A DNA stretch of 64,000 bases, from positions 18,771,971 to 18,835,970 of the forward strand of contig NC_003070.9 of NCBI RefSeq assembly GCF_000001735.4, given 5' to 3'. Every line of letters begins with the position of its first letter. The stretch's first letter is position 1. Made by a program: the position numbers and the translations under genes. This document shows positions 5,631 to 61,002 of this stretch, one piece after another. The notes under the pieces were generated by a model. The model saw only the letters and a program-made list of their open reading frames with translations. It ran no database searches and was not told the DNA's origin. Source of the stretch: Arabidopsis thaliana (Eukaryota > Streptophyta > Magnoliopsida > Brassicales > Brassicaceae).

Positions 5631-6725
5631 CTAAGGACATTCGATCCTTACACCAAACAGCATAAACCCTCCTTTGTTCTCCTCTGATTTGGTTTCTTTA
5701 TCTTCTAACATGGAGCTAACCAAGTTTTCTGTTTTCTTTACTTGCACTGAACTGTCATGAACCGTCATACTTACTTCCTCAGCTACCACGGAACCGTTGT
5801 CTGAAAAGCAATGAACATCGATCATCAAGAAGTTCTTTCTTTGACCTTCTAATGTCTTCACATTGTTCGGGACATCGCAAGTGTAGAAGGCAATAACATC
5901 CTTCTCCTTGAGATTCTTCTCCTTCACGAAACTATTCCATCCTCTGGTGAAGACAAAGCTCTGGCTACTTTTCCAGTAACAATACCTAAACTTCCATTGT
6001 CTCATTGCTCTGTCGTAAAACACAACCTCCACATCTTCCACAGATCCTACTATTTCACCCTCTTCTTTCTCGCTTTGATCAGCGCTTATGAAAGGCATAT
6101 ACTTCACTGCATACTTTTTAGGTATCACAAGCCTATTTAGTTTCCCTACATCGCTCGGTGTCAATTCCTTCTGAAAAAGCTGTGTGCAAGAAAAACACTT
6201 GTCTGATTCTTGATTCACTTCTCCTCGGGCTTGTTTTGGTCCCCCGATGTTGATACTCGCAACAATCTGAGATCTGATTCTGAGAAAATCTCTGAATTTG
6301 TGTTGGTACGAACCGTCTCTGATCATGTTCAACACAGTCTCTGTTGTGTAGCAATTTTGAAAGTCTGGTTCGTTGAGAGTGATTGTAGACCAAGGGAAGT
6401 TCCGGTGCGAGTTAGCGTCAAAGCTTCGGAGTTTGATAGATGCACTATCGTAAGCCGTGGCGGCTTCATCAGCGGATTTGAAAGTTCCAAGCCAAATCCT
6501 TTTGTGGTCTGCGTAAATCTGGGCACCCCAATGACCGTTCTGTTGCTGAACGACTCCTTTGTACTTGACATTGCCAGAAGCCACAACCGTCTTTGGTGAA
6601 GACGAAACCACTAGGGCGTTTTCTGGTTCGTCATCAAGTCTCATGCGTTTCTTGAGAGGCAAGAAAGAGTCGCTTGAACCTGAAGACACTGAAGTCTCCG
6701 TCTTTGCGTCGTCGATGTTGTTCAT
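5631..6725 (-). CDS. AP2/B3 transcription factor (RAV/TEMPRANILLO class)
   Basis: Single exon, 364 residues. An AP2/ERF domain spans about residues 54-111 (YKGVVQQQNGHWGAQIYAD ... RIWLGTF ... AAxAYD ... NFPW). A B3 DNA-binding domain spans about 183-297 (LFQKELTPSDVGKLNRLVIP ... WKFRYCYWKSSQSFVFTRGW ... KEKDVIAFY). One AP2 domain followed by one B3 domain defines the RAV family, whose members bind bipartite CAACA/CACCTG sites. TEMPRANILLO members repress FT and delay flowering. The C-terminus ends GGFMLFGVRIECP. The MLFGV core resembles the RLFGV repression motif of this family, with Met in place of the usual basic residue. A near-complete antisense frame (6,210-6,599) is a shadow. The family is certain; the target genes are not visible. 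Confidence 0.95.
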   Translation of the reverse strand: MNNIDDAKTETSVSSGSSDSFLPLKKRMRLDDEPENALVVSSSPKTVVASGNVKYKGVVQQQNGHWGAQIYADHKRIWLGTFKSADEAATAYDSASIKLRSFDANSHRNFPWSTITLNEPDFQNCYTTETVLNMIRDGSYQHKFRDFLRIRSQIVASINIGGPKQARGEVNQESDKCFSCTQLFQKELTPSDVGKLNRLVIPKKYAVKYMPFISADQSEKEEGEIVGSVEDVEVVFYDRAMRQWKFRYCYWKSSQSFVFTRGWNSFVKEKNLKEKDVIAFYTCDVPNNVKTLEGQRKNFLMIDVHCFSDNGSVVAEEVSMTVHDSSVQVKKTENLVSSMLEDKETKSEENKGGFMLFGVRIECP

Positions 6726-17209: not shown

Positions 17210-17674
17210 TCATGCGTAATTACACAACCCATAGACACAAAACTCACCAACCAAACAACTATGGTTGCACTCCCCACAATGCCTCTTATCATAAGCTAAG
17301 TAAACGCACTCTCCTCTACAACAAGTCTGCGTGAACTTGCATTGGTTCTTACATGCGCCACAGTTATCGTTATCGTACGCCAGATCAACACACTTGTTGC
17401 TACAACACGCCATGGTTGAGTTGTACATTCCTTGACTCTTGCATATCTCCTCTTCTTTATTGCAATGATCCGCTGCGTTAAGATTACGACCGTTCTTTGC
17501 GTTTTGCGCTAAGAAACGGCTCACCCTTCCCGTTGTAATTAGCGTTTGCGTCTGCGTATGCGTTTGTAACAACGTTTCTGTTTTGTTGTTGCTAACAAAT
17601 ACTGTAGCAATGAGTACCATTATGGCTATAGAAATGGTTAGAAGTATTGTCAATACGGTATTTCTATGCCCCAT
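17210..17674 (-). CDS. STIG1-family secreted cysteine-rich protein
   Basis: Single exon, 154 residues. An N-terminal hydrophobic segment (about residues 8-27, [20 protein letters not shown]) acts as a signal peptide. A Thr/Gln-rich linker follows, then a cysteine-rich C-terminal domain from about residue 70. The domain carries the repeated STIG1 pattern: [21 protein letters not shown], then [21 protein letters not shown], then [12 protein letters not shown]. Stigma-specific STIG1 relatives are apoplastic peptides acting at stigma and pollen tube surfaces and in exudate secretion. A TATA box lies 89-96 bp upstream. Length and motif spacing are normal for the family. Receptor and tissue cannot be told from the sequence. 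Confidence 0.92.
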
Positions 17675-23304: not shown

Positions 23305-26300
23305 ATGGAGTTGGAATTCCGGCGTCGCGACTATGGAGCTACACATAAATCTCAATTTCTTCCTCGGTCACAAACTCAAAAGCATCCTCTTTCCTCTACA
23401 CTTGCTTCTCGTGACCAACAGGTCTGCGATACGATCCCTTAGAGGAGCGTTCACTAGCTATATCAATTCCCACATTTTTGTTCCCTTATCCAATTCATTA
23501 GTCTTCTCTGAATTCCTAGTGATTAGAGTAAAAAACTTCAATATATTGTTTGATTATTACTGCTGAATTTGATGGCTTTTGATTTTTAGTTCTTGAAGAG
23601 GATTGATGCATAATAAGACTTGAAAAAATTGATTTATAAAATATATATGTAGGCTAAAACTGTCAGAGGTCGCGATCTTCACTTCTTTGATCCATTGAGG
23701 GGCTTGGATGTGAATGCTTCTGCTGAAGAGAATGTTGAAGATACTTGTATATCCATTGAAGCTGTAACTCAGGATCTGATAAAGGAGTGGAAATCACTTA
23801 AAAGAATCTTAATGCAGCGGTTTCCTGTCTCCAAAGTGATTTCATTTTCTCCAGTTACGTATATTCTTTGCATAGAGACTTATTATTTGCTAAAAAGATC
23901 ATTTGGTGTCTCCCTTATTCATCTTGTCTAACCTGTTCACCCATATTTTACAGATATCTAATATAATAACGAAAGGTTCCAAGGGTATGTCTTCGTTATG
24001 CCTAATAATAACCCTTTTCATTGTAGCAGCCTGGTTTATTGTTTCATGAACTTGTGGATGCATATCATAACAGCTTCTGCTTTGCTTTACTCAATCAGCA
24101 GTTGAGTCCCCTTCTGCTCTTTCCCATCCGGAGGAAACTGGCAGCGAACAAACTTCTCTGGAAGAGCCGGCCAAAATAATCAGCCAACATGAATATATAG
24201 CCAAAGTACATGAGCTAAGAGATGGAATAAATAGCGCTTGGCAGGCTGAAGATCGAGTAACATCGTTGAAGTTATCAATAAAGGTTAACATACTAACTAA
24301 TCAAATTGCTTTGCAACAAAGCATGGAGAATTTGTTTGTAAAAATTTCAAAAAATTGGTTGTGTTCTATTCCTCTGTATCATTTTTATCCGTATGAATAA
24401 GTAAAAAGGATTCATTTGATTGATATATCCAATATAGAGTGCTCTTAAAAGCTCGTGTTCAATTGGAGTTGTATTTGAATACTTTTCCGCCATAGAAGCA
24501 GTTTGCTTGGAAATAAAAATAGATATGTGCTTTGGCTGTAGATATTTATTCCTAACTAACTAGATTATTATTATTTTAGGGTTCAATAATATCTTCCATT
24601 CTGCAGGTCACAAAGCTTCTGATGGATACAACAGTTTTGCGGTTTTATCCTACAGTCTTTGTCATTGTCACTGACATGCTAGATATGCTTGGGGATATGG
24701 TGTGGGAGCGGATCAAACAGAAAGCAGAACTTGATATAGATGGAACAGTGATCTGCGCCTTACCGAGTATGCATTTCTATTCTAATCGTGTGTTTCTTTC
24801 TAACAAAATAATATTTAGTCCTGAGCATAGTGTTCTCGAGAATAAAATTATGTGACCTGGGCATTTGTTCATGATTACAATCAAACACATACATTTGATG
24901 CCAACAGGTAGCGTTATTTCTAGTTGCAGCTTATAATTTATTCTCTAACCTGTGCTAAAGACAGATGATTTTCAATCAAGTGATATCTGCCTTGAAGCAA
25001 GAGAGACTTGCTATAACTGGTTTTGCAAAGTTGGTTCTGTTCGAGAACTTCTCCCTCGCATGTAAAGCCCCATCAATTATTATTTTTCTTATTCTCCCTA
25101 CCTTCCTCTGCCTTAGCATTGGCCTTTCTTTGTATGCCCATAGTTATCTGGAGCTTGCGATCTTGCCTTGCTGGCGTTTCCTCATTAATCAACCCATGGA
25201 AGTTCTGGATCGTTTAGTCATGATGGTGAGAGGTCTCGCAGATCCACTGACATCTTTGTATTGTCGTCTTTATATGGTGCATCGCATGCAGAAGTTTGGG
25301 TTCTGCAGTTCAGGTACTCTTATACTATTATTCTTTCAGCAAAATGCTAGATACATGGTTGAAGAATCATAATGTTTTGTAATTTGCAGAATAAGCTTGG
25401 CTTTCTTAAACCGAAATGGATACAGAATTCTACTCTAGTCACATTTTCTTGCTAGATATTATAAGTTATGAATTTCCTTGTCATGAGTGAATACAGTTTG
25501 AACTTTGAAGAGACTAGGGAAGTCTGTTTGACTTGAGTATAGCACATGGGAGTTCTCGTGAATCATTCCATCATGACTGAATATCTGTAGATGAAGTGTC
25601 TCCTATCCTTTTACTTTTAGCAAGATGATGCGTAATGTTAGACACCTTCAGTTTGCGAATTTGAAGTTAGGATTTTACATGCCAACAATTAGATTTATGT
25701 GAGATGTTTTTTTCTTCCTTGAGGAAGACACTTGATATCTAAGTTTGACCTTTATATAACAGGATATTTAATCAAATGCATCAAGGATATTGAAGATGTA
25801 TTGGCGCCTGTTTTAGTGGACAAGGAGGGGTATTCCTATATTACAGACGACAAAAAGTTACTTTTTAGTTTGGTGGAACCAGCCATCGAGTATATAATGA
25901 AATGCTTATTTCTGACTGGACGTCAGGTTAGTCAATGTTCTTGACTGACTAAAACTTTTGGTTCACCTTTTTTTCCCATTCACAATGAGCTTGAGTTAGT
26001 TTTGCATTACATTTACTGAGGCAAAAAATGTCTGTCAGACCTTGTTTATCATTTCCGTGGTTTGTTATAAATTGATTGTTGTCCTAAAAATTTGGTTAGT
26101 GTACAGGAGAACAATGTCTTGGGCATACTTGAGGAGCTTGGATTTGGACGGAACAAATTTCAGTCATCTTACAACTCTTCGCATGTGTCCATTTTACTTC
26201 ATTATTTACTCAAGGAACTTCCGTCTGAATTAGTTAGTTCACTAGCAATGGAGATCTTGGATATGATTAGATGCAGCAATGATTGTTCCTTTAGTCAGGT

Positions 26301-29300
26301 TATTTCTTCATCTCAGATTATATAAAATAGACAATCCAGTGAGTCTAACCCTTCCTTTTATGTTGTACTGTTTCATCAAGCAGGTTTTGAATTATAGGTT
26401 ACTTGGAAATAGATTGTCTGAAGGGAAATCTCAAGAAGGTTTTCTCAGTTCACTCATTGATGAAGTTATTCAGGTTTGGTGTTTCGTCTTTCGTTCAACA
26501 AAATTAGGAATTCATTCTCATGGATTTTCAATCTTTTTGTGCCTGACATACTGACATTTATATATACACATCATATACCAAAAGATGCATCTCACTCCTT
26601 CCTGAATACTGATTTGCATAATACTCCTTTTCTTGCACATTTAATATGTCAACAAAACCTATGGTAAGGAGCGAAAAGTTAACGTGACTATTGCAACAGG
26701 CTGACATTTAAATGTAACTATTGTAACAGGCTGCTTCTCAGTATCAGTCACTTTATGACTACTTAAGAATTATGGACGCATATGTGGATCTTATGTTGCA
26801 GAACAAGATGGTGAGACCGATGTGATTTTTTTATTTGTACTCATGAGAATTCTCTGATCTCGTTTCTTTAGATTTATTTATCAGTTTTAATGGTTTCAGG
26901 AAAATCATCTGGATGCTCTCTTGGATGATATTGTAAGCCTAGCTCGCGACAAGTTTCTTTCTGAAGAAGAACAAGCAAGTTTGCAATCCATAATTTTGAA
27001 GCTGCTCTCTCATTTCGAGAACTTGCAAGAAGTACTTCCTCTGGTAATACTTTCCTCCCTCTTTCCTTTATCTACTTTCAGGCTTTCAGGAAACAGTACA
27101 CAGCATCCAAATAGAGCTGTTTTGTATTTCTTTGGATGACATCATTATCTAGTTTCGCTAAACAACTTCTTTGGTTATCTTCTAGAATCATTTCATCGAG
27201 ATTCTGGATCTTATGTCTGGGACTTCAAAGAGCAGTGTAAACATGCATCTTCTTAACATGGGTACAAGGTAAGGCTTGTTTGTTTTTCCAACGTTCTTAA
27301 TTTGAACTAAATATCTCACACTTTTTGGATGGGGACATAGACCATTGTAAAGTTGATGAACGTTAATTTACATACATAACGTTTATGTATTTGGAAGGAT
27401 TTGTGATCCTCTTTCTTTCTTGGTTAAAGTATTCATGTTTCTTTTCCTTTGGAGCAGGAATGGCTGCATTTGTGATTCAACAACAGTGCAATTGCTTTTT
27501 GAAGTTTCTCAGGCTCTTTATGATGCTACAGATTTCGTTAACATAAAGGATGATGACAATAGACAGACATCACATTTAATTTCTCGTTTTGTTGAGATGG
27601 TACCTTAAGTTCCACTTACATTATTACGAAATCAGTGAGCACTTGCCCTTTTTGTCAAGTTAGTTGAATTTGACTTCACTTTTGATGCTTAGGTTGACTA
27701 TGGGGCAGAAATGGAACGCCATTTATTGTTTTTGGCGGAGTGTCGTGAGGCCTTTAATGGGATACATGAACTTAAGGTCAGCAAAAAGTTAATTATTCTT
27801 TGGTATCAGTTTTAACTTTTAATACTGCTATACCTGTGGAGGACCCTGTATAGTTCCAGTCTTGTGCATTCTTTTACTTCTTAAAGAGAGTTGATTATCT
27901 GGTAATCAGTTAATTATGGTGCATTGCTATTTATCTAGTCCTTTCTTGCTTGGTCATGACGGATACTTAGCCTTGGATTTGAGGGTCAAGCAGCAATGTA
28001 TCTGCCATCTGGTGCATGATCTAAGTTATACATAATAGAATTTGAAGGTTAATGTGAATTTGGTAAAAACTCTAGAAATTACCGCAAAATTTGGCTACAT
28101 ATGATATGGTACATTTATGAGAAGGGAGGAGTACAGAGACTATTAGATATTAAGTATAGAGACTAGAGAGGGAACAAGAGCAATACATGCTTCCCACATG
28201 CTTTTTTTCTTGCTATGGGTGTGTTTATTTTTCGTTTATTTGCATTAGAGCTTGACACAAACAAAAATTATCAAACATTTTGATCATTTTTCCTGCTTAT
28301 GGTCACTGGCTGCAGGAGACACTTGTTCGTTCAAGCAACACCTTGGCAGTAAAAGCACTGAAAGCAGGAAAGAAGCATATCAACTTTGTTAAATCTTGCC
28401 TAGCATTTAGCGAAGTGACCATCCCATCTATTTCATCTCCCACGAAACACTTAAATCTTTATCTTGAAACTGCTGAGGTAATATTTTTGTCTTTTTCAGT
28501 CCTTTACACTCCCACTTCAAAGCAATATACGTACTAAAGTTTGTTTTATAGGTTGCACTTTTAGGTGGTTTGATTTCTCATTCAGATGAACTGGTCATGT
28601 CAGCTGTTGAGTATCTAGAGAATGTAGTGCTGACAGATGGTGAGTCTGCAAATGTTTAATTTAACTACTGGATACTAAATAAATATCTGAAAAGTAATAA
28701 AACTAGTCTGACATATCTTGCCACCCTAAGACCAGTTACTGCAAAGAGAATACTTGGTTTAAATATTATAATGATGATTCTATGGTCGGTGGCCTGCATA
28801 CACTTTTACTTGTGAAGTTTTTTCAAGTATAGATGATTATCTTTTTCTTCGTCACTCTAGCTTTGTATTTTTTCCATTTTCAGTTGTTCTTCAGGGCCTT
28901 TTATTTTTTCTCCAGATAAATGTATATGTCTTAATGAATGAATATGCATCGGATATGTTGATGGTATAATATCTTGTACATTTTTCTCTATCAGGTTTAA
29001 AATCAATTGATATAGATAGTATGGCCTCGGTTATATGCAAATTGTGCAGCCTCTTGGTAATGATCCCAGGTAAATCGTGGAAACTGTTTGATAGTTTTTG
29101 CTCAACAATATAGATGTGACTCTGTGTCACCAAATTGATTTCGTTCTCCTTATTTCTTCGGAGCTTCATAACTGAGTTATTTTCGTATATTCAATTGGAA
29201 AGGTAATCCCGAGAAAGGCGTGATGGAGATCCTTAAAAGTATCTTCTCTGCTACTCGCTCTAGTTCATGGTATGCATATCTCAAGGACTTAGTTTTTACC

Positions 29301-30128
29301 TACCTGTGGGCTGTGGACATGTAAAATAGACATGTATTCTCTTGTTTGTCTGCTGTTCTAATGCCCTCTTATGGCTAAAAGTTTATTGTCCCTTATGTAA
29401 TTGTGATTGTGTGACATTTTGTGTTGTTGTAGGGCAACACTGAGAGTAAAGGTGAAGATTTTCTGTGCTATAATGTCACTGTTGTCGACACTTTCTCAGG
29501 ACAATCTGCCTTACCATTCTGCCAATCCAGAGGTATTTATATGCCTCTCATCATCTTATTTGAAGCAAAACATTAGTTCCATTGTCGAAATTCCTTGGTC
29601 TGCGTAGTCTGTTTTCTGATGGCTGGTTTTATAATGTAAAATTTGGGTTATACTTATTTTTGTGCAGATAATTGGAAATGAATTGCTGTTCTTTGGTGAT
29701 TCATCATACAAGCAGGAACTTGTCTCGTGTACTCAGTTAGTTCTAAGTGAACTATTAGATGCTATTGAGCAAGAGTCTTCACAGGTCAAACTACTACCAC
29801 TAATAAGAAACATTCTAACTTTTTTGTTTCTCTAACTAACCCGAGGTTTTATTATTGCAGATTTCTCGGGGGAACATGGCGCTTGAAGCTTGCAATTGCA
29901 TATCATCAGCACTAGTGGTACTGTTTTTCTGCCAAGTTTTGCATATTTTCTCATTCTTGAAAAGTTTTATTAACTTGGGGTGGTGACATGTTTGATGTTG
30001 TGCAGATGAATGAGAAAGTCAAAGAACTTTGCTTGAGACTGCTGGAAACAGCAAAAGGTTGTTTGGGTGCCAATGACAGGTACATCGAATCGACTAAGAA
30101 ATCACTCCAGCTAAGATACACCGAGTGA
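23305..30128 (+). CDS. VPS35L-like protein (Retriever/Commander large subunit homologue)
   Basis: I trace 23 exons: 23305-23421, 23653-23835, 23954-23984, 24099-24283, 24607-24766, 24965-25061, 25144-25313, 25763-25926, 26107-26298, 26384-26473, 26730-26810, 26900-27043, 27186-27268, 27458-27599, 27693-27776, 28316-28477, 28552-28639, 28995-29069, 29203-29269, 29433-29532, 29668-29784, 29861-29917 and 30006-30128. Phases agree throughout and give about 903 residues. Several blocks line up with animal VPS35L (C16orf62): KLLMDTTVLRFYPTVFVIVTD, TCYNWFCKVGSVRELLPR, MVRGLADPLTSLYCRLY and KSCLAFSEVTIPSI. VPS35L forms Retriever with VPS26C and VPS29 and recycles endosomal cargo. The protein is alpha-solenoid-like with no membrane segment. 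The 31-nt exon 3 and the exon 2 donor are the least certain parts. Confidence 0.88.
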
Positions 30129-37213: not shown

Positions 37214-40080
37214 CTAGATCCAACGAGCTGCTTCAATTTTTCTCTGTCTCATGGCACTCCTTTCTTTCAAAGATGCCAGATTTCTCTGTGCCATAGTAAT
37301 ATGCTCTTTTAACGACAATGCCAGCACCTTCAGCTCTTCCAATCTCTTTTCGTATGAGTCATTAGCAGCATCACCCTCACCAAAATCATTCTTTCTCTTT
37401 TCTAAATCCTCTAACTGCTCATTGGATTTCGAAGTTTCATCACTTCCGAGGCCATTATCTTGAAGCCCACAATCCTGTCCTTGGCTTCCTTCCCCTACAG
37501 CGATTTGAATGTTTGACTCATCAGTTGGGCTCAGAACCACACTCTTGCATGCTCTGCTTGTTTCATCTCTATTAGTTCCTCTGGTAGCATGCTGTTGATG
37601 AGGGACTGGTTCAATGTTGTTCATTGTGTCATCATCAGCAACAACATCTTCCTTCTCAGCTTCACTACTGCACAACTTCTCATCTGAGCTCGGCTCCTCT
37701 ACTGCAATGATACCATCTTCGTGGAGCAAACACTTTGGTTGCTTGCTGCCATCATCAAACATATCTGCATTACTTTCATTTACATCAAGCTCATCATCAC
37801 AGGCTTGCCTTGTCTCTGGTGGTGACACAACAATGTCAACTACTCCTCTGTCAGCACAAAAAGGAGGTTCTGAAGAGTTGTTTTCATCAAATGGGCTCTC
37901 ATCCATATTCGTCCCTGCTCTGCTTCCAGCTTCATCGGTCTCTCCATTCCTATGCGCAATTTCTGATGGTGGTACAATTTCATCTCTTATTGAAGCAAGC
38001 TTTTGAAAAGTCCCCAAATCATTGTTATCTGCCTCAACTCTACTTATCTTACCAAGCGGTTCAGAAGCATCTCTTCCACTATTCCGTACATCACTATACT
38101 TCTTCTTATTAAGTCTCAGAAATTGAGCAATGGAGAGGTTATCATCTTCATCATTATTGTCTGAATGAACATGTGTATGACATTGACCCATATGACTCTC
38201 ATTGTTCTCACGAACTCGTTTCATGTACTTGCGTCTCTTGTCGAAATCCTCAGCTATCTTCATTCCATCTTTGCTTGTTCTGTTCACCTTAGAGCCTGAA
38301 AGAACAAAACTAGTATCACACCTATGATGTTTCTTGATTTCAATGTTTCACCTGACTCATTGTTACCGTTTTTTCGAGCTTGCTTTATGTACTGGAGTCT
38401 TTTTTCACGAGCTTGCTTCATGTATTTGAGTCTTTTGTCACGAGCTTGCTTATTGTAATTGCGTCTCTTGTTTGAATCGTCAGTTATATTCATTTCATCC
38501 TTTCTTGTTCTGTTCATCTTAGAGCCTGCAGCAACAAAATTAGTATCATCACCTATGATGTTTCCTTATTTCAATATTTCAGTTGATTCATTGTTACAGT
38601 TTTCACTAGCTTTCTTCATGTACTTGCGTCTCTTATTCTTGCTTTATGTTCTTGCGTCTTGTGTTTGTCGAATCCTGAGCATGAATTTTCATATTATCCT
38701 TGCCTTTCTTGTTCATCTTGGAGCCAGAAGGAACAAAACTAGTATCAGCCCCTAGGCTTTTTCTGTCTCTAGCTTTCAATGTTTCAGCTGATTCATTAGC
38801 ATCCTTATCCTTAGAAGAAGTCTGGAATTCTGGAAACGACCTCCTCCACCATTCGCAGAACGTTGGAGTAACACGAGGTATTGCAGAACGTGAAGGAATG
38901 AATAATGCTAAATCGTTAATAGGCTTATTGTAATCATTCCAAGCTGCCTCCTGTGAGAGGTTGTTCTGGTTAACAGCACAAGGAACATCTTGAAGCATCC
39001 CAAACTGTGAAGCCACTCGATTGGGAAAGTAATGCTCCACATTGTCAATTCCAACAAGCTGAGACACCTTAATGCATCGAGCAAAGGAGACAAATTCAAC
39101 ATCAAGATTGGGACTAGCAGGAATCCACACCGCTTTCTCGGGGTAAAACTTAGGAAACTCTCACTCTTTCTCAGTTTTTGTGTAGGGACGCCACTCAAAA
39201 CTGTCGATTTTCAAGCTATCCAGAATCTGTCTCGCATCGCTGGTTCTCTGTAAGAGGCCATGCCAAAGAGCCAATCTTGGCTCACCTTTCAGCAATGGAT
39301 TGGGTTTTACTGTAGTTCCTTGAACCTCTCCCATGTCCAAACTTGAAGCAACTTAAACAGGGCAGTGAGATCAATTCTAGCCGTACTCGTCGATTCACTG
39401 AAAGCTGTGATGTGTTTTTTTAAGAGACTTAGCTCAGCATATAAGTGTGCAAGAACAGCAAGGGCAAGAGCAATCCTAGTACCAGTTGAAAGATGAACAA
39501 CAATTGGGAAAACAGCTTTATAGAGATGATACAAGCGTGATGGAAACACAAAATAGTTAAGCCACAAGACGAGGAAAGCCACATGCTCAAGCTCATCACC
39601 ACTGTCCATGAATCTCTCCATCCATGCTACTTGTGTTACGAAATTGACTTTAGCTTTCTTAATCTTCTTCCACTCTTTATCCAGTTTCGCCTTAACCTCC
39701 TTTCCTGAGCTATCCAGAGTGGCAAAAACAGGTGAACCCAAAACAGAGAAACCTGAAAGCACCATAACATCTTCAAGTGTGACAGCTGTTTCACCCCAAG
39801 GGAAAACAAAGGTTTTGGTGTAAGGACACCATTTCTCAGCAATACCCAGAATAAGATCCGGGTTTTTAGGGATTCTGTATATGGATGCCATGACTGCTTC
39901 AAAAATGCCAGCTTCTCTCCAAGTGGGTTCATGTAAAGCAGCCATTTCTATAGCCCAAGACTCGAACTTTGTGTTTGCAAATCTCCAACCCCAGTAGGAA
40001 ACACTCTTAGACAGAGCGTTTGAGTGAAGAGAAGGAGCAGAACGGTTTTGACAAGGAAGCATAGCTTCAGATCCCTTCAT
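37214..40080 (-). pseudogene. PMD (MAIN-like) gene, array copy 1, with frameshift and stop
   Basis: The 5' part (40,080-39,310) reads through the first two thirds of the plant mobile domain (WGWRFANTKFESWAIEMAAL ... LEDVMVLSGFSVLGSPVFAT ... VWTWERFKELQ). One base is missing at about 39,309-39,311 where the paralogues have Gln-Pro-Lys, giving a TAA. Further on, a conserved Trp codon (KNWxFP) is TGA at 39,163-39,161. The frame continues 39,160-38,633, then breaks again in a region of repeated 'SGSKMNR..KDEM.I' modules (38,720-38,280). A 357-codon tail (37,214-38,287) is open. The tail is acidic, Ser-rich and ends in a short coiled coil. Splicing around the lesions cannot be excluded, but the paralogues have no introns here. 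Confidence 0.75.
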
Positions 40081-56869: not shown

Positions 56870-56957
56870 TTATCGATTGAGAGGACAAGAGAAAACACTA
56901 AAAAGAGAGAGAGGCAACAAAAGTGAGATCGTATACGTCTCAGCAAAAAGCGAGACG

Positions 56958-58262
56958 ATGCAAGACTCCTCACATCAAGTCATCCCTATATTCGATGGGG
57001 AGAAATATGACTTCTGGAGCATTAAAATGGCAACCATTTTCAGGACCAGAAAACTATGGTCCGTGGTTGAAGAAGGCGTACCGGTCGAACCGGTACAAGC
57101 GGAAGAAACTCCTGAAACTACAAGAGCAAAGACGCTCAGAGAAGAAGCAGTGACAAATGATACAATGGCTTTGCAAATCTTGCAAACTGCCGTAACCGAT
57201 CAAATCTTCTCACGGATTGCAGCGGCATCATCATCAAAAGAAGCGTGGGATGTGTTGAAGGACGAATACCAAGGATCTCCACAAGTCCGATTGGTTAAAC
57301 TTCAATCGCTGCGTAGGGAGTACGAGAACTTGAAGATGTATGACAATGACAACATCAAGACATTCACCGATAAGTTAATTGTTCTGGAAAATCAATTGAC
57401 TTATCATGGTGAAAAGAAGACAAACACTCAACTCATACAGAAGATACTCATCTCTCTCCCAGCCAAGTTCGACAGCATTGTTAGTGTTCTAGAGCAAACT
57501 CGCGACTTGGATGCACTAACAATGTCAGAACTTCTTGGTATCTTAAAAGCACAAGAAGCGAGAGTAACTACAAGAGAAAGCACAAAAGAGGGAGCATTCT
57601 ATGTTCGGTCTAAAGGAAGAGAATCCGGTTTCAAACAAGACAACACCAACAACCGTGTCAATCAAGACAAGAAATGGTGTGGTTTTCACAAGAGGAGCAA
57701 ACACACAGAAGAAGAGTGTCGAGAGAAACCGAAGAATGACGATCATGGCAAAAATAAGAGAAGTAACATCAAGTGTTACAAGTGTGGGAAGATCGGCCAT
57801 TACGCAAATGAGTGTCGCTCGAAGAACAAAGAGAGAGCTCATGTAAGTCTTGAAGAAGAAGACGTAAATGAAGATCATATGTTGTTTAGTGCAAGTGAAG
57901 AAGAACCAACAACGTTAAAAGAAGATGTTTGGTTGGTAGACAGTGGCTGCACAAACCATATGACGAAAGAAGAGAGATACTTTTCAAACATCAACAAAAG
58001 TATCAAAGTCCCAATTAGAGTCGGAAATGGAGATATAGTCATGACAGCCGGTAAAGGAGATATTACCGTCTTGACAAGGCATGGCAAAAGAATCATCAAG
58101 AATGTTTTCTTAGTGCCTGGTTTGGAGAAGAACCTATTGAGCGTTCCTCAAATCATCTCAAGCGGCTATCGGGTACGTTTTCAAGACAAGAGATGCATCA
58201 TCCAAGATGCAAATGGCAAGGAGATCATGAACATAGAGATTAAGTTCTGTCGAAGAAGAAGC
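56958..58262 (+). CDS. Copia gag-protease region
   Basis: Frame from the ATG at 56,958. It contains a copia gag domain (IPIFDGEKYDFWSIKMATIF ... EAWDVLKDEYQGS ... LVKLQSLRREYENLKM), then a CCHC zinc knuckle CYKCGKIGHYANEC (57,774-57,815). The aspartic protease active site DSG follows (57,939-57,947, WLVDSGCTNHM). The true frame ends by a shift near 58,240-58,264; the same frame otherwise runs on to 58,400 without meaning. Structural and processing functions of the element. Confidence 0.9.
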
Positions 58263-58263
58263 C

Positions 58264-61002
58264 ATGACAGCCAATGTTCAAACAGAGGAAACTTGGCACA
58301 AAAGACTTGGCCATGTAAGCAACAAGCGCTTGCAACAAATGCAAGACAAGGACTTGGTAAATGGGTTACCAAGATTCAAAGTGACGAAGGAGGCATGTAA
58401 AGCGTGTAATCTTGGGAAGCAATCACGCAAGAGCTTTCCAAAAGAATCTCAAACGAAGACAAGAGAAAAGCTTGAGATTGTGCATACGGATGTGTGCGGA
58501 CCGATGCAACACCAATCGATCGATGGAAGTCGCTACTATGTGCTGTTTTTGGATGATTATACTCACATGTGTTGGGTATACTTCCTAAAACAAAAGTCGG
58601 AGACGTTCGCAACGTTCAAGAAATTCAAAGCGTTGGTGGAGAAACAATCAAATTGTTCCATCAAGACGTTGAGATCCGATGGAGGTGGTGAGTTCACTTC
58701 ACGAGAATTCAATCAGTTCTGTGAAGATGAAGGAATTAATAGGCAAGTGACTTTGCCTTACTCACCTCAACAAAATGGTGCAGCAGAACGCAAGAATAGA
58801 TCATTGGTGGAGATGGCAAGATCAATGCTTGTTGAACAAGACTTACCCCTCAAGTTATGGGCAGAAGCGGTATATACCTCAGCGTATTTGCAAAATCGTT
58901 TACCATCAAAAGCAATAGAAGATGATGTGACGCCTATGGAGAAGTGGTGTGGACACAAACCAAATGTGTCACACTTGAGAATGTTTGGAAGCATATGTTA
59001 CGTTCATATACCGGATCAGAAAAGAAGAAAGCTAGACGCTAAAGCAAAGTGTGGTATTCTCATCGGTTATAGCAATCAAACCAAAGGCTATAGAGTGTTC
59101 TTACTGGAAGATGAGAAGGTGGAAGTATCAAGAGATGTTGTTTTTCAAGAAGACAAGAAGTGGGATTGGGATAAACAAGAATAAGTTAAGAAAACTTTTG
59201 TCATGTCCATCAACGACATACAAGAGTCAAGAGATCAACAAGAGACATCCAGCCATGATTTGTCTCAAATCAATGATCATGCTAACAATGGAGAAGGAGA
59301 AACCTCAAGTCATGTGTTATCCCAAGTCAATGATCAAGAAGAACGAGAAACTTCAGAATCACCAAAAAGATACAAATCCATGAAAGAGATCTTGGAAAAG
59401 GCACCAAGAATGGAGAATGAAGAGGCGGCTCAAGTCATAGAAGCTTGTCTTGTTGCGAATGAAGAACCACAAACTTATGATGAAGCTCGTGGTGATAAAA
59501 AATGGGAAGAAGCCATGAATGAGAAGATAAAGATGATCGAGAAAAACAGAACATGGAAACTAGTAGACAAACCGGAGAAGAAGAATGTGATAAGCGTGAA
59601 GTGGATCTATAAGATCAAGACGGATGCAAACGGAAATCACGTCAAGCACAAGGCAAGACTAGTTGCGAGAGGTTTTTCTCAAGAATATGGAATCGATTAT
59701 CTTGAGACATTCGCCCCTGTTTCAAGATATGATACAATACGAGCCTTACTTGCGTATGCGGCTCAAATGAAGTGGAGATTGTATCAAATGGATGTGAAGT
59801 CGGCGTTTCTAAACGGAGAGCTTGAAGAAGAAGTTTATGTCACATAACCACCTGGGTTTGTGATAGAAGGCAAAAAAGAGAAGGTGTTAAGGCTTTACAA
59901 AGCCTTATATGGTCTTAAGCAAGCTCCACGTGCATGGTATGAAAGAATTGATTCTTACTTCATTCAAAATGGTTTTGCAAGAAGTATGAATGATGCAGCC
60001 TTGTACATCAAGAAGAAAGGAGAATACGTGTTGATCGTTAGCTTGTACGTCGATGATCTTATCATCACTGGAAACAACACTCATCTCATCAACACATTTA
60101 AGAAGAACATGAAGGACGAGTTCGAGATGACAGATCTCGGTTTGCTAAACTACTTCCTTGGAATGGAAGAACACCAAGATGACAGTGGCATTTTTCTTTC
60201 ACAAGAAAAATATGCAAACAAACTTATTGATAAGTTTGGGATGAAAGAGAGCAAGAGTGTAAGCACCCCATTTACACCACAAGGGAAAAGAAAAGGAGTA
60301 GAAGGTGACGACAAAGAATTTAAAGATCCAACAAAGTACCGGAGCATTGTCGGAGGATTGCTCTATCTATGTGCATCAAGACCTGATGTGATGTACGCAA
60401 GTTCTTACCTATCAAGGTACATGTCATCACCAAGCATTCAACACTATCAAGAAGCCAAACGAGTGTTGAGATACGTCAAGGGAACGTCAAACTTTGGAGT
60501 ACTCTTTACAAGCAAAGAGACACCAAGATTAGTTGGCTACTCGGACAGCGATTGGGGTGGTTCTCCGGAAGACAAGAAAAGCACCACAGGTTATGTCTTT
60601 ACTCTTGGTTCGGCTATGTTTTGTTGGCAGTCTTGTAAGCAGCAAACAGTGGCTCAATCAACGGCGGAAGCAGAGTACATAGCAGTGTGTGCTGCGACAA
60701 ACCAAGCCATATGGTTGCAAAGACTCTTTGAAGACTTCGGCTTAAAGTTCAAAGAAGGTATTCCCATCTTATGTGACAACAAGTCGGCAATAGCGATTGG
60801 AAGGAATCCGGTGCAACATAGAAGAACAAAGCACATCGAAATCAAGTATCATTTCGTGAGAGAAGCTGAGCACAAAGGACTCATTCAACTTGAGTATTGC
60901 AAAGGAGAAGATCAACTCGCGGATATACTTACCAAGGCGTTAAGTGTTACAAGGTTTGAAAATCTCAGAAGGAAGCTTGGAGTGAAGCCGAGATATGATT
61001 AA
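58264..61002 (+). pseudogene. Copia integrase, reverse transcriptase and RNase H, with in-frame stops
   Basis: Frame offset from gag, so a frameshift lies near 58,250. It begins with the GAG-pre-integrase motif TWHKRLGHVSNKRLQQM. The integrase core follows (HTDVCGPM, LDDYTHMCWVYFLK, RSDGGGEFTS). TAA at 59,182-59,184 and TAA at 59,845-59,847 (expected Gln before PPGF) split the rest. Reverse transcriptase blocks KHKARLVARGFSQ and the catalytic YVDD (60,046-60,057) are intact. RNase H has TAEAEYIAV and CDNKSAI. The polypurine tract AAGGGGGAG lies at 61,001-61,009. Confidence 0.9.

Follow-up and report, generated by a model that had tools for sequence, protein, structure and literature searches.

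In human VPS35L (C16orf62), the large scaffold subunit of the animal recycling complex Retriever, the HPL motif clips VPS29 (PMC10312975, a preprint; PMC10187114). The aromatic residue W6 of its N-terminal belt is seated in a pocket of which G902 forms part; either W6D or G902E abolishes VPS29 binding (PMC10312975). A hairpin carrying I761 serves as an accessory VPS29 contact: on I761G or deletion, more than 50% of the binding to VPS29 is lost while CCC is still retained, and mutation of L67 in human VPS29 weakens the interface with this hairpin (PMC10187114). Plant papers base their models on VPS35A, which the table of PMC8905187 gives as the plant counterpart of VPS35L. We analysed a 64,000-nucleotide stretch of Arabidopsis thaliana DNA (hereafter the window) and found that its gene AT1G50730 almost certainly encodes the Arabidopsis VPS35L orthologue. 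Genome searches were run against the 119.7-Mb, 7-contig A. thaliana genome, in which the window is contig 1, 18771971-18835970.

Positions 23305 and 30128 of the window were the exact start- and stop-codon bounds of one gene on the + strand. Splicing by hand gave the 23 exons expected from the sequence-only reading and a protein of 903 amino acids (aa) with no internal stops. With 18 more bases in exon 2, which moves its end to 23853, the product became 909 aa long and agreed at every letter with the top database match, P0001 ("hypothetical protein AT1G50730", 909 aa). All 22 introns of this model were GT-AG. The six residues added at the exon-2 donor are kept in similar form in P0032, an orthologue from outside the genus, so the 909-aa model is the better one; the earlier length of about 903 was six residues short at this donor. 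P0006 (954 aa, an A. thaliana accession) has additional residues between the exon 4 and exon 5 sequences, probably an annotation difference in intron 4. When the genome was searched with P0001, each of the 21 exon matches fell within its own gene, and since no second copy was found in this way, genetic tests should be simple. The exons are as follows.

23305-23421, 23653-23853, 23954-23984, 24099-24283, 24607-24766, 24965-25061, 25144-25313, 25763-25926 (+ strand): AT1G50730 exons 1-8, with GT-AG introns and a translation equal to P0001.
26107-26298, 26384-26473, 26730-26810, 26900-27043, 27186-27268, 27458-27599, 27693-27776, 28316-28477 (+ strand): exons 9-16, on the same evidence.
28552-28639, 28995-29069, 29203-29269, 29433-29532, 29668-29784, 29861-29917, 30006-30128 (+ strand): exons 17-23, on the same evidence.

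The claim that this protein resembles VPS35L and not retromer VPS35 was borne out by profile and fold comparisons. A profile of 76 plant orthologues matched human VPS35L at 473.3 bits (E 1e-140, profile 4-916 to chain 9-946) and VPS35 at 27.2 bits. BLASTP against human VPS35L (residues 9-946) gave 292 bits, while the best of 100 shuffles reached 25.8 bits, and in a phmmer search of PDB sequences VPS35L was the sole match up to E 10 (E 8.2e-87). The AlphaFold model of AT1G50730 had a mean predicted local distance difference test score (pLDDT) of 78.5 and a predicted template modelling score of 0.65; with this model, human VPS35L chains took Foldseek ranks 1-5 and retromer VPS35 came next. An unrelated HEAT solenoid was rejected on the profile bits and on this ranking, in which no unrelated family stood above VPS35L or VPS35.

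24185..30122 (+ strand): alpha-solenoid, residues 146-908 (exons 4-23), from the AlphaFold model and Foldseek matches to 8syn_A and 8p0x_O.

With this orthologue-level homology and fold, the conserved belt and VPS26C face described below and the partner genes present in the genome, AT1G50730 is very probably a plant Retriever subunit acting with VPS26C and VPS29. Its protein would be the scaffold of a plant VPS35L-VPS26C-VPS29 Retriever, the solenoid carrying VPS26C near its N-terminal end and VPS29 near its C-terminal end. The first ~29 residues would fold back as a belt on the C-terminal helices and the HPL motif would enter the VPS29 pocket, an insertion that would commit that VPS29 to Retriever, while CCDC22-CCDC93 would be received on the opposite C-terminal face.

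To compare residues, human VPS35L was added to a MAFFT alignment of the 76 plant sequences, and contacts were taken from PMC10312975 and PMC10187114. The background identity between the Arabidopsis and human proteins in this alignment was 219/875. Three features concern the belt and its docking.

23305..23391 (+ strand): N-terminal belt, residues 1-29 (F5, R6, R8, Y10, P20, H27-P28-L29), from the profile alignment reaching human residue 9.
23383..23391 (+ strand): HPL motif codons, residues 27-29, the predicted VPS29 clip, from residue counts in the 76 plants.
29912..29914 (+ strand): L868 codon, placed at the human G902 column in two of three alignments, a possible belt-docking site, from DSSP isolated bridge residues 5 and 868 in the model.

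Six of the eight belt residues were the same in Arabidopsis and human (R9, R11, P26, H33, P34 and L35 in human numbering); human E16 was T in Arabidopsis (E in 63/76 plants) and L27 was R in 75/76. The HPL columns were H in 73, P in 76 and L in 72 of the aligned plants. HPL was also found in 202 of 228 proteins chosen, from 275 fetched, for an intact upstream belt motif; 20 of the 26 exceptions were listed, 18 of them with HPF, and Diphasiastrum likewise had HPF in place of HPL. In the Adiantum (fern) model, a 523-aa fragment, the belt was not seen at the start. A belt or HPL motif was looked for in the first exons of VPS35A and not seen. Judged from these alignments, the belt is the part of the AT1G50730 protein that discriminates VPS35L from VPS35.

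The residue preceding R-x-R-x-Y was F in 74/76 plants and E in one, and in one the motif was absent from the first 40 residues; the human belt aromatic, W6, lies two residues further upstream than this F. The G902 column was F in 56 and L in 16 of the 76 plants by MAFFT. The human G902 partner was L868/F by MAFFT and by the profile, A867 by phmmer, and an ungapped alignment puts F5 at human S8, not W6. DSSP marked isolated bridge residues at 5/868 in the Arabidopsis model and 3/867 in the Nelumbo model, which map to the belt F and the G902 column; the pairing was deduced from DSSP marks rather than coordinates, and the two models are not fully independent, most of the alignments being common to both. 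The first-ten-residue block had a pLDDT of 75 in the Arabidopsis model. An exchange of sizes between belt and pocket in plants (W6 to F, G902 to F/L) is plausible from these alignments and models.

On the solenoid and just ahead of it, three stretches were compared with the human contacts.

24965..25313 (+ strand): VPS26C-contact stretch, exons 6-7 (E245, N249, S256, R258, E259, R263, G294), with 7 of 9 human contact or mutant residues the same.
28316..29269 (+ strand): CCDC22-CCDC93-contact stretch, exons 16-19 (S674, P684, S710, H711, D713, P755, G756, N757), with 4 of 8 human residues the same.
23755..23820 (+ strand): helix 74-95, ahead of the solenoid, from the AlphaFold model (block pLDDT 72-88).

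The VPS26C-face residues shared with human were E275, N279, S286, R288, E289, R293 and G325; the two that differed, Q367 and T372, both lie outside exons 6-7. Part of this stretch was also found in VPS35 in the profile alignment, and the stretch thus points to a VPS26-type partner and not to VPS26C specifically. By its position, helix 74-95 is a possible counterpart of human helix alphaC, a CCDC22-CCDC93 contact. Enrichment values were 0.001 for the VPS26C face, 0.004 for the belt and 0.11 to 0.44 for the other three residue groups, and are descriptive only, because the papers picked residues partly for conservation.

Partner genes were found elsewhere in the Arabidopsis genome. The VPS29 locus (L018; contig 3, 17.637 Mb) encodes a protein with 120/183 residues the same as human. 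Its HPL pocket was identical at 8/9 residues (L29 is M; L152 of one paper is L156 of the other and was counted once), and D99, I91, W93 and V174 were also identical, while L67 was A. The HPL pocket of human VPS29 also binds other proteins, e.g. TBC1D13 (PMC12311110), and a conserved pocket alone is therefore no proof. The Pfam Vps26 search gave two loci, on contigs 4 and 5, and missed VPS26C, which was found with a VPS26C query at 17.951 Mb of contig 1; its exons matched human VPS26C at E 4.7e-19 and VPS26A at 0.26. Among its contacts, Q233, Q236, D241 and R256 were identical to human, with E210 as D and N234 as S. A CCDC22 match lay on contig 1 at 20.868 Mb (58.9 bits) and a weak CCDC93 match, under the cut-off of 30, on contig 4 at 15.715 Mb (26 bits). 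By map position, we take these loci to be AT1G55830 and AT4G32560. Both of these gene identifiers are named in PMC9815543. The COMM-domain search of the genome gave 0 matches, but so did its controls, and absence is not shown by it.

A divergent retromer VPS35 paralogue, acting in retromer with VPS26A/B, would agree with the Pfam Vps35 match of the AT1G50730 protein (49.1 bits, above the cut-off of 35) and with the part of the VPS26-binding stretch that it has in common with VPS35. However, the profile bits (473 vs 27) and the Foldseek order both fall on the VPS35L side, PF03635 located three separate VPS35 loci in the genome, AT1G50730 not among them, and the AT1G50730 protein matched itself alone; we rejected this explanation as extremely improbable. 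It could also be that VPS35A is the large subunit of plant Retriever, and AT1G50730 a relic or a gene of some other function. Bimolecular fluorescence complementation pairing VPS26C with VPS35A, not B or C, speaks for VPS35A and against our proposal, and short root hairs are common to vps35a, vps26c and vps29 (PMC11397296, PMC8905187, PMC9815543). Yet AT1G50730 is not a decaying gene, since it has kept its full length, the 76 aligned plants conserve its belt and VPS26C face and its orthologues reach down to a lycophyte, and VPS35A showed no belt or HPL motif in its first exons. We consider the VPS35A alternative improbable; it may be AT1G50730, and not VPS35A, with which VPS26C and VPS29 naturally assemble in plants.

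A plant Retriever built on AT1G50730 is supported by the interface conservation, though according to PMC11397296 plant interaction data are lacking; several points weigh against such a Retriever. The belt pocket (human S829, G902 and others) was identical at 3/8 residues in Arabidopsis and 1/8 by plant majority, the CCDC22-CCDC93 face at 4/8 (human P713, S739, D742, P787) and the other VPS29-face residues at 1/3, with human H826 as S and I761 unaligned. The model was without the hairpin between helices 709-724 and 737-750, with no strands and a pLDDT below 50 at 730-733. The apparent loss in plants depends on the alignment used: MAFFT aligns no residue to I761 in 76/76 plants and in the profile it falls in an insertion, but in phmmer it is matched by a T. 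With VPS29 L67 also replaced, the hairpin contact may be reduced on both sides in plants. PMC11397296 and PMC8905187 report that seed plants lack COMMD and WASH and that no SNX17 has been identified, and CCDC22/93 look cytosolic in plants (PMC9815543), so that membrane recruitment is unexplained. Endosome-to-plasma-membrane recycling by the plant complex is less certain, since the factors that serve recruitment in animals are among those reported as lacking.

The same reports, with half of the CCDC face residues substituted, would suit a plant complex of VPS35L with VPS26C and VPS29 that has been turned to a purpose other than this recycling. CCDC22 and CCDC93 are kept, however, and their mutants have root-hair phenotypes in common with vps26c (PMC9815543); we regard repurposing as unlikely, though worth keeping in mind. 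Taken jointly, our proposal would be a flowering-plant VPS35L-VPS26C-VPS29 Retriever with CCDC22-CCDC93 and without COMMD/WASH, the VPS35A assignment being wrong or secondary, the VPS29 lock being rewired (belt W6 to F, pocket G902 to F/L; hairpin contact and its VPS29 L67 partner reduced), and the whole module, including VPS35L, being lost from grasses. We hold this combination to be about as likely as not, allowing for a hairpin loss that varies with the alignment used. Should AT1G50730 be the true scaffold, the vps29 phenotypes would have to be read anew as joint loss of Retromer and Retriever, and Retriever would operate with the CCDC pair but without a COMMD ring.

Orthologues were found in eudicots, magnoliids, monocots, a gymnosperm (Taxus), a fern (Adiantum) and a lycophyte (Diphasiastrum), with partial models from the last three; the 75 other aligned orthologues were 47-93% identical to P0001. 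PMC9815543 reports that grasses lack VPS26C, CCDC22 and CCDC93. The Arabidopsis query (120 of 415 matches listed) and the Nelumbo query (120 of 430) named no monocot in the rows carrying names and are uninformative on grasses. A Tasmannia query of 499 residues, with which candidates can be no longer than about 873 aa, had 145 matches; the 120 listed included six monocots (Typha, two Musa, Ensete, Canna, Spirodela) and no named Poaceae, 13 of the 120 being without an organism name. Typha, a member of Poales, thus has a VPS35L orthologue. The listing agrees with, and does not show, a loss of VPS35L in grasses, which is suggestive only.

Other features were noted in the window.

5631-6725 (- strand): B3 transcription-factor open reading frame (ORF), 364 aa; an AP2 match of 28.4 bits lies under the Pfam cut-off of 33.3.
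17210-17674 (- strand): STIG1-family ORF, 154 aa.
37214-62891 (- strand): plant mobile domain (PMD) ORF cluster; the ORFs at 39307, 41491 and 52080 match PF10536 (E 2e-70 to 5e-118) and the others are similar by eye.
56877-61002 (+ strand): Ty1/copia-type retrotransposon (gag, zinc knuckle, integrase and reverse transcriptase domains), broken into several frames and placed between opposite-strand ORFs of the PMD cluster.

That plants have a VPS35L was already known in broad terms. The sequence-only reading had described this locus as listed only as a hypothetical protein, which is the title of P0001, but in calling the gene hidden and the subunit missing it overstated the case: PMC11397296, a 2024 review, mentions a plant VPS35L homologue as recently identified, unstudied and given a question mark, the belt alignment of PMC10312975 (2023) covers plants, as its legend states, and in NCBI many plant orthologues already carry a C16orf62- or VPS35-like name. 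In the open-access literature searched, no paper linked plant VPS35L to AT1G50730 by name or tested AT1G50730, which was named in a gene list of one N6-methyladenosine (m6A) study.

Compared with known systems, the AT1G50730 protein is closest to human VPS35L of Retriever (PDB 8syn/8p0x), which it resembles in near full-length homology, solenoid fold, HPL belt and VPS26C face, at an identity of about 25%. Retromer VPS35 (Arabidopsis VPS35A/B/C; PDB 7u6f, 7bln) shares the solenoid fold class, and its VPS26-binding stretch is related, but it differs in its 27 vs 473 bits and in the belt and HPL, which were not seen in the VPS35A first exons. The plant entries named UPF0505, C16orf62 homolog or VPS35 endosomal protein-sorting factor-like are its orthologues, and differ from the A. 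thaliana entry solely in name.
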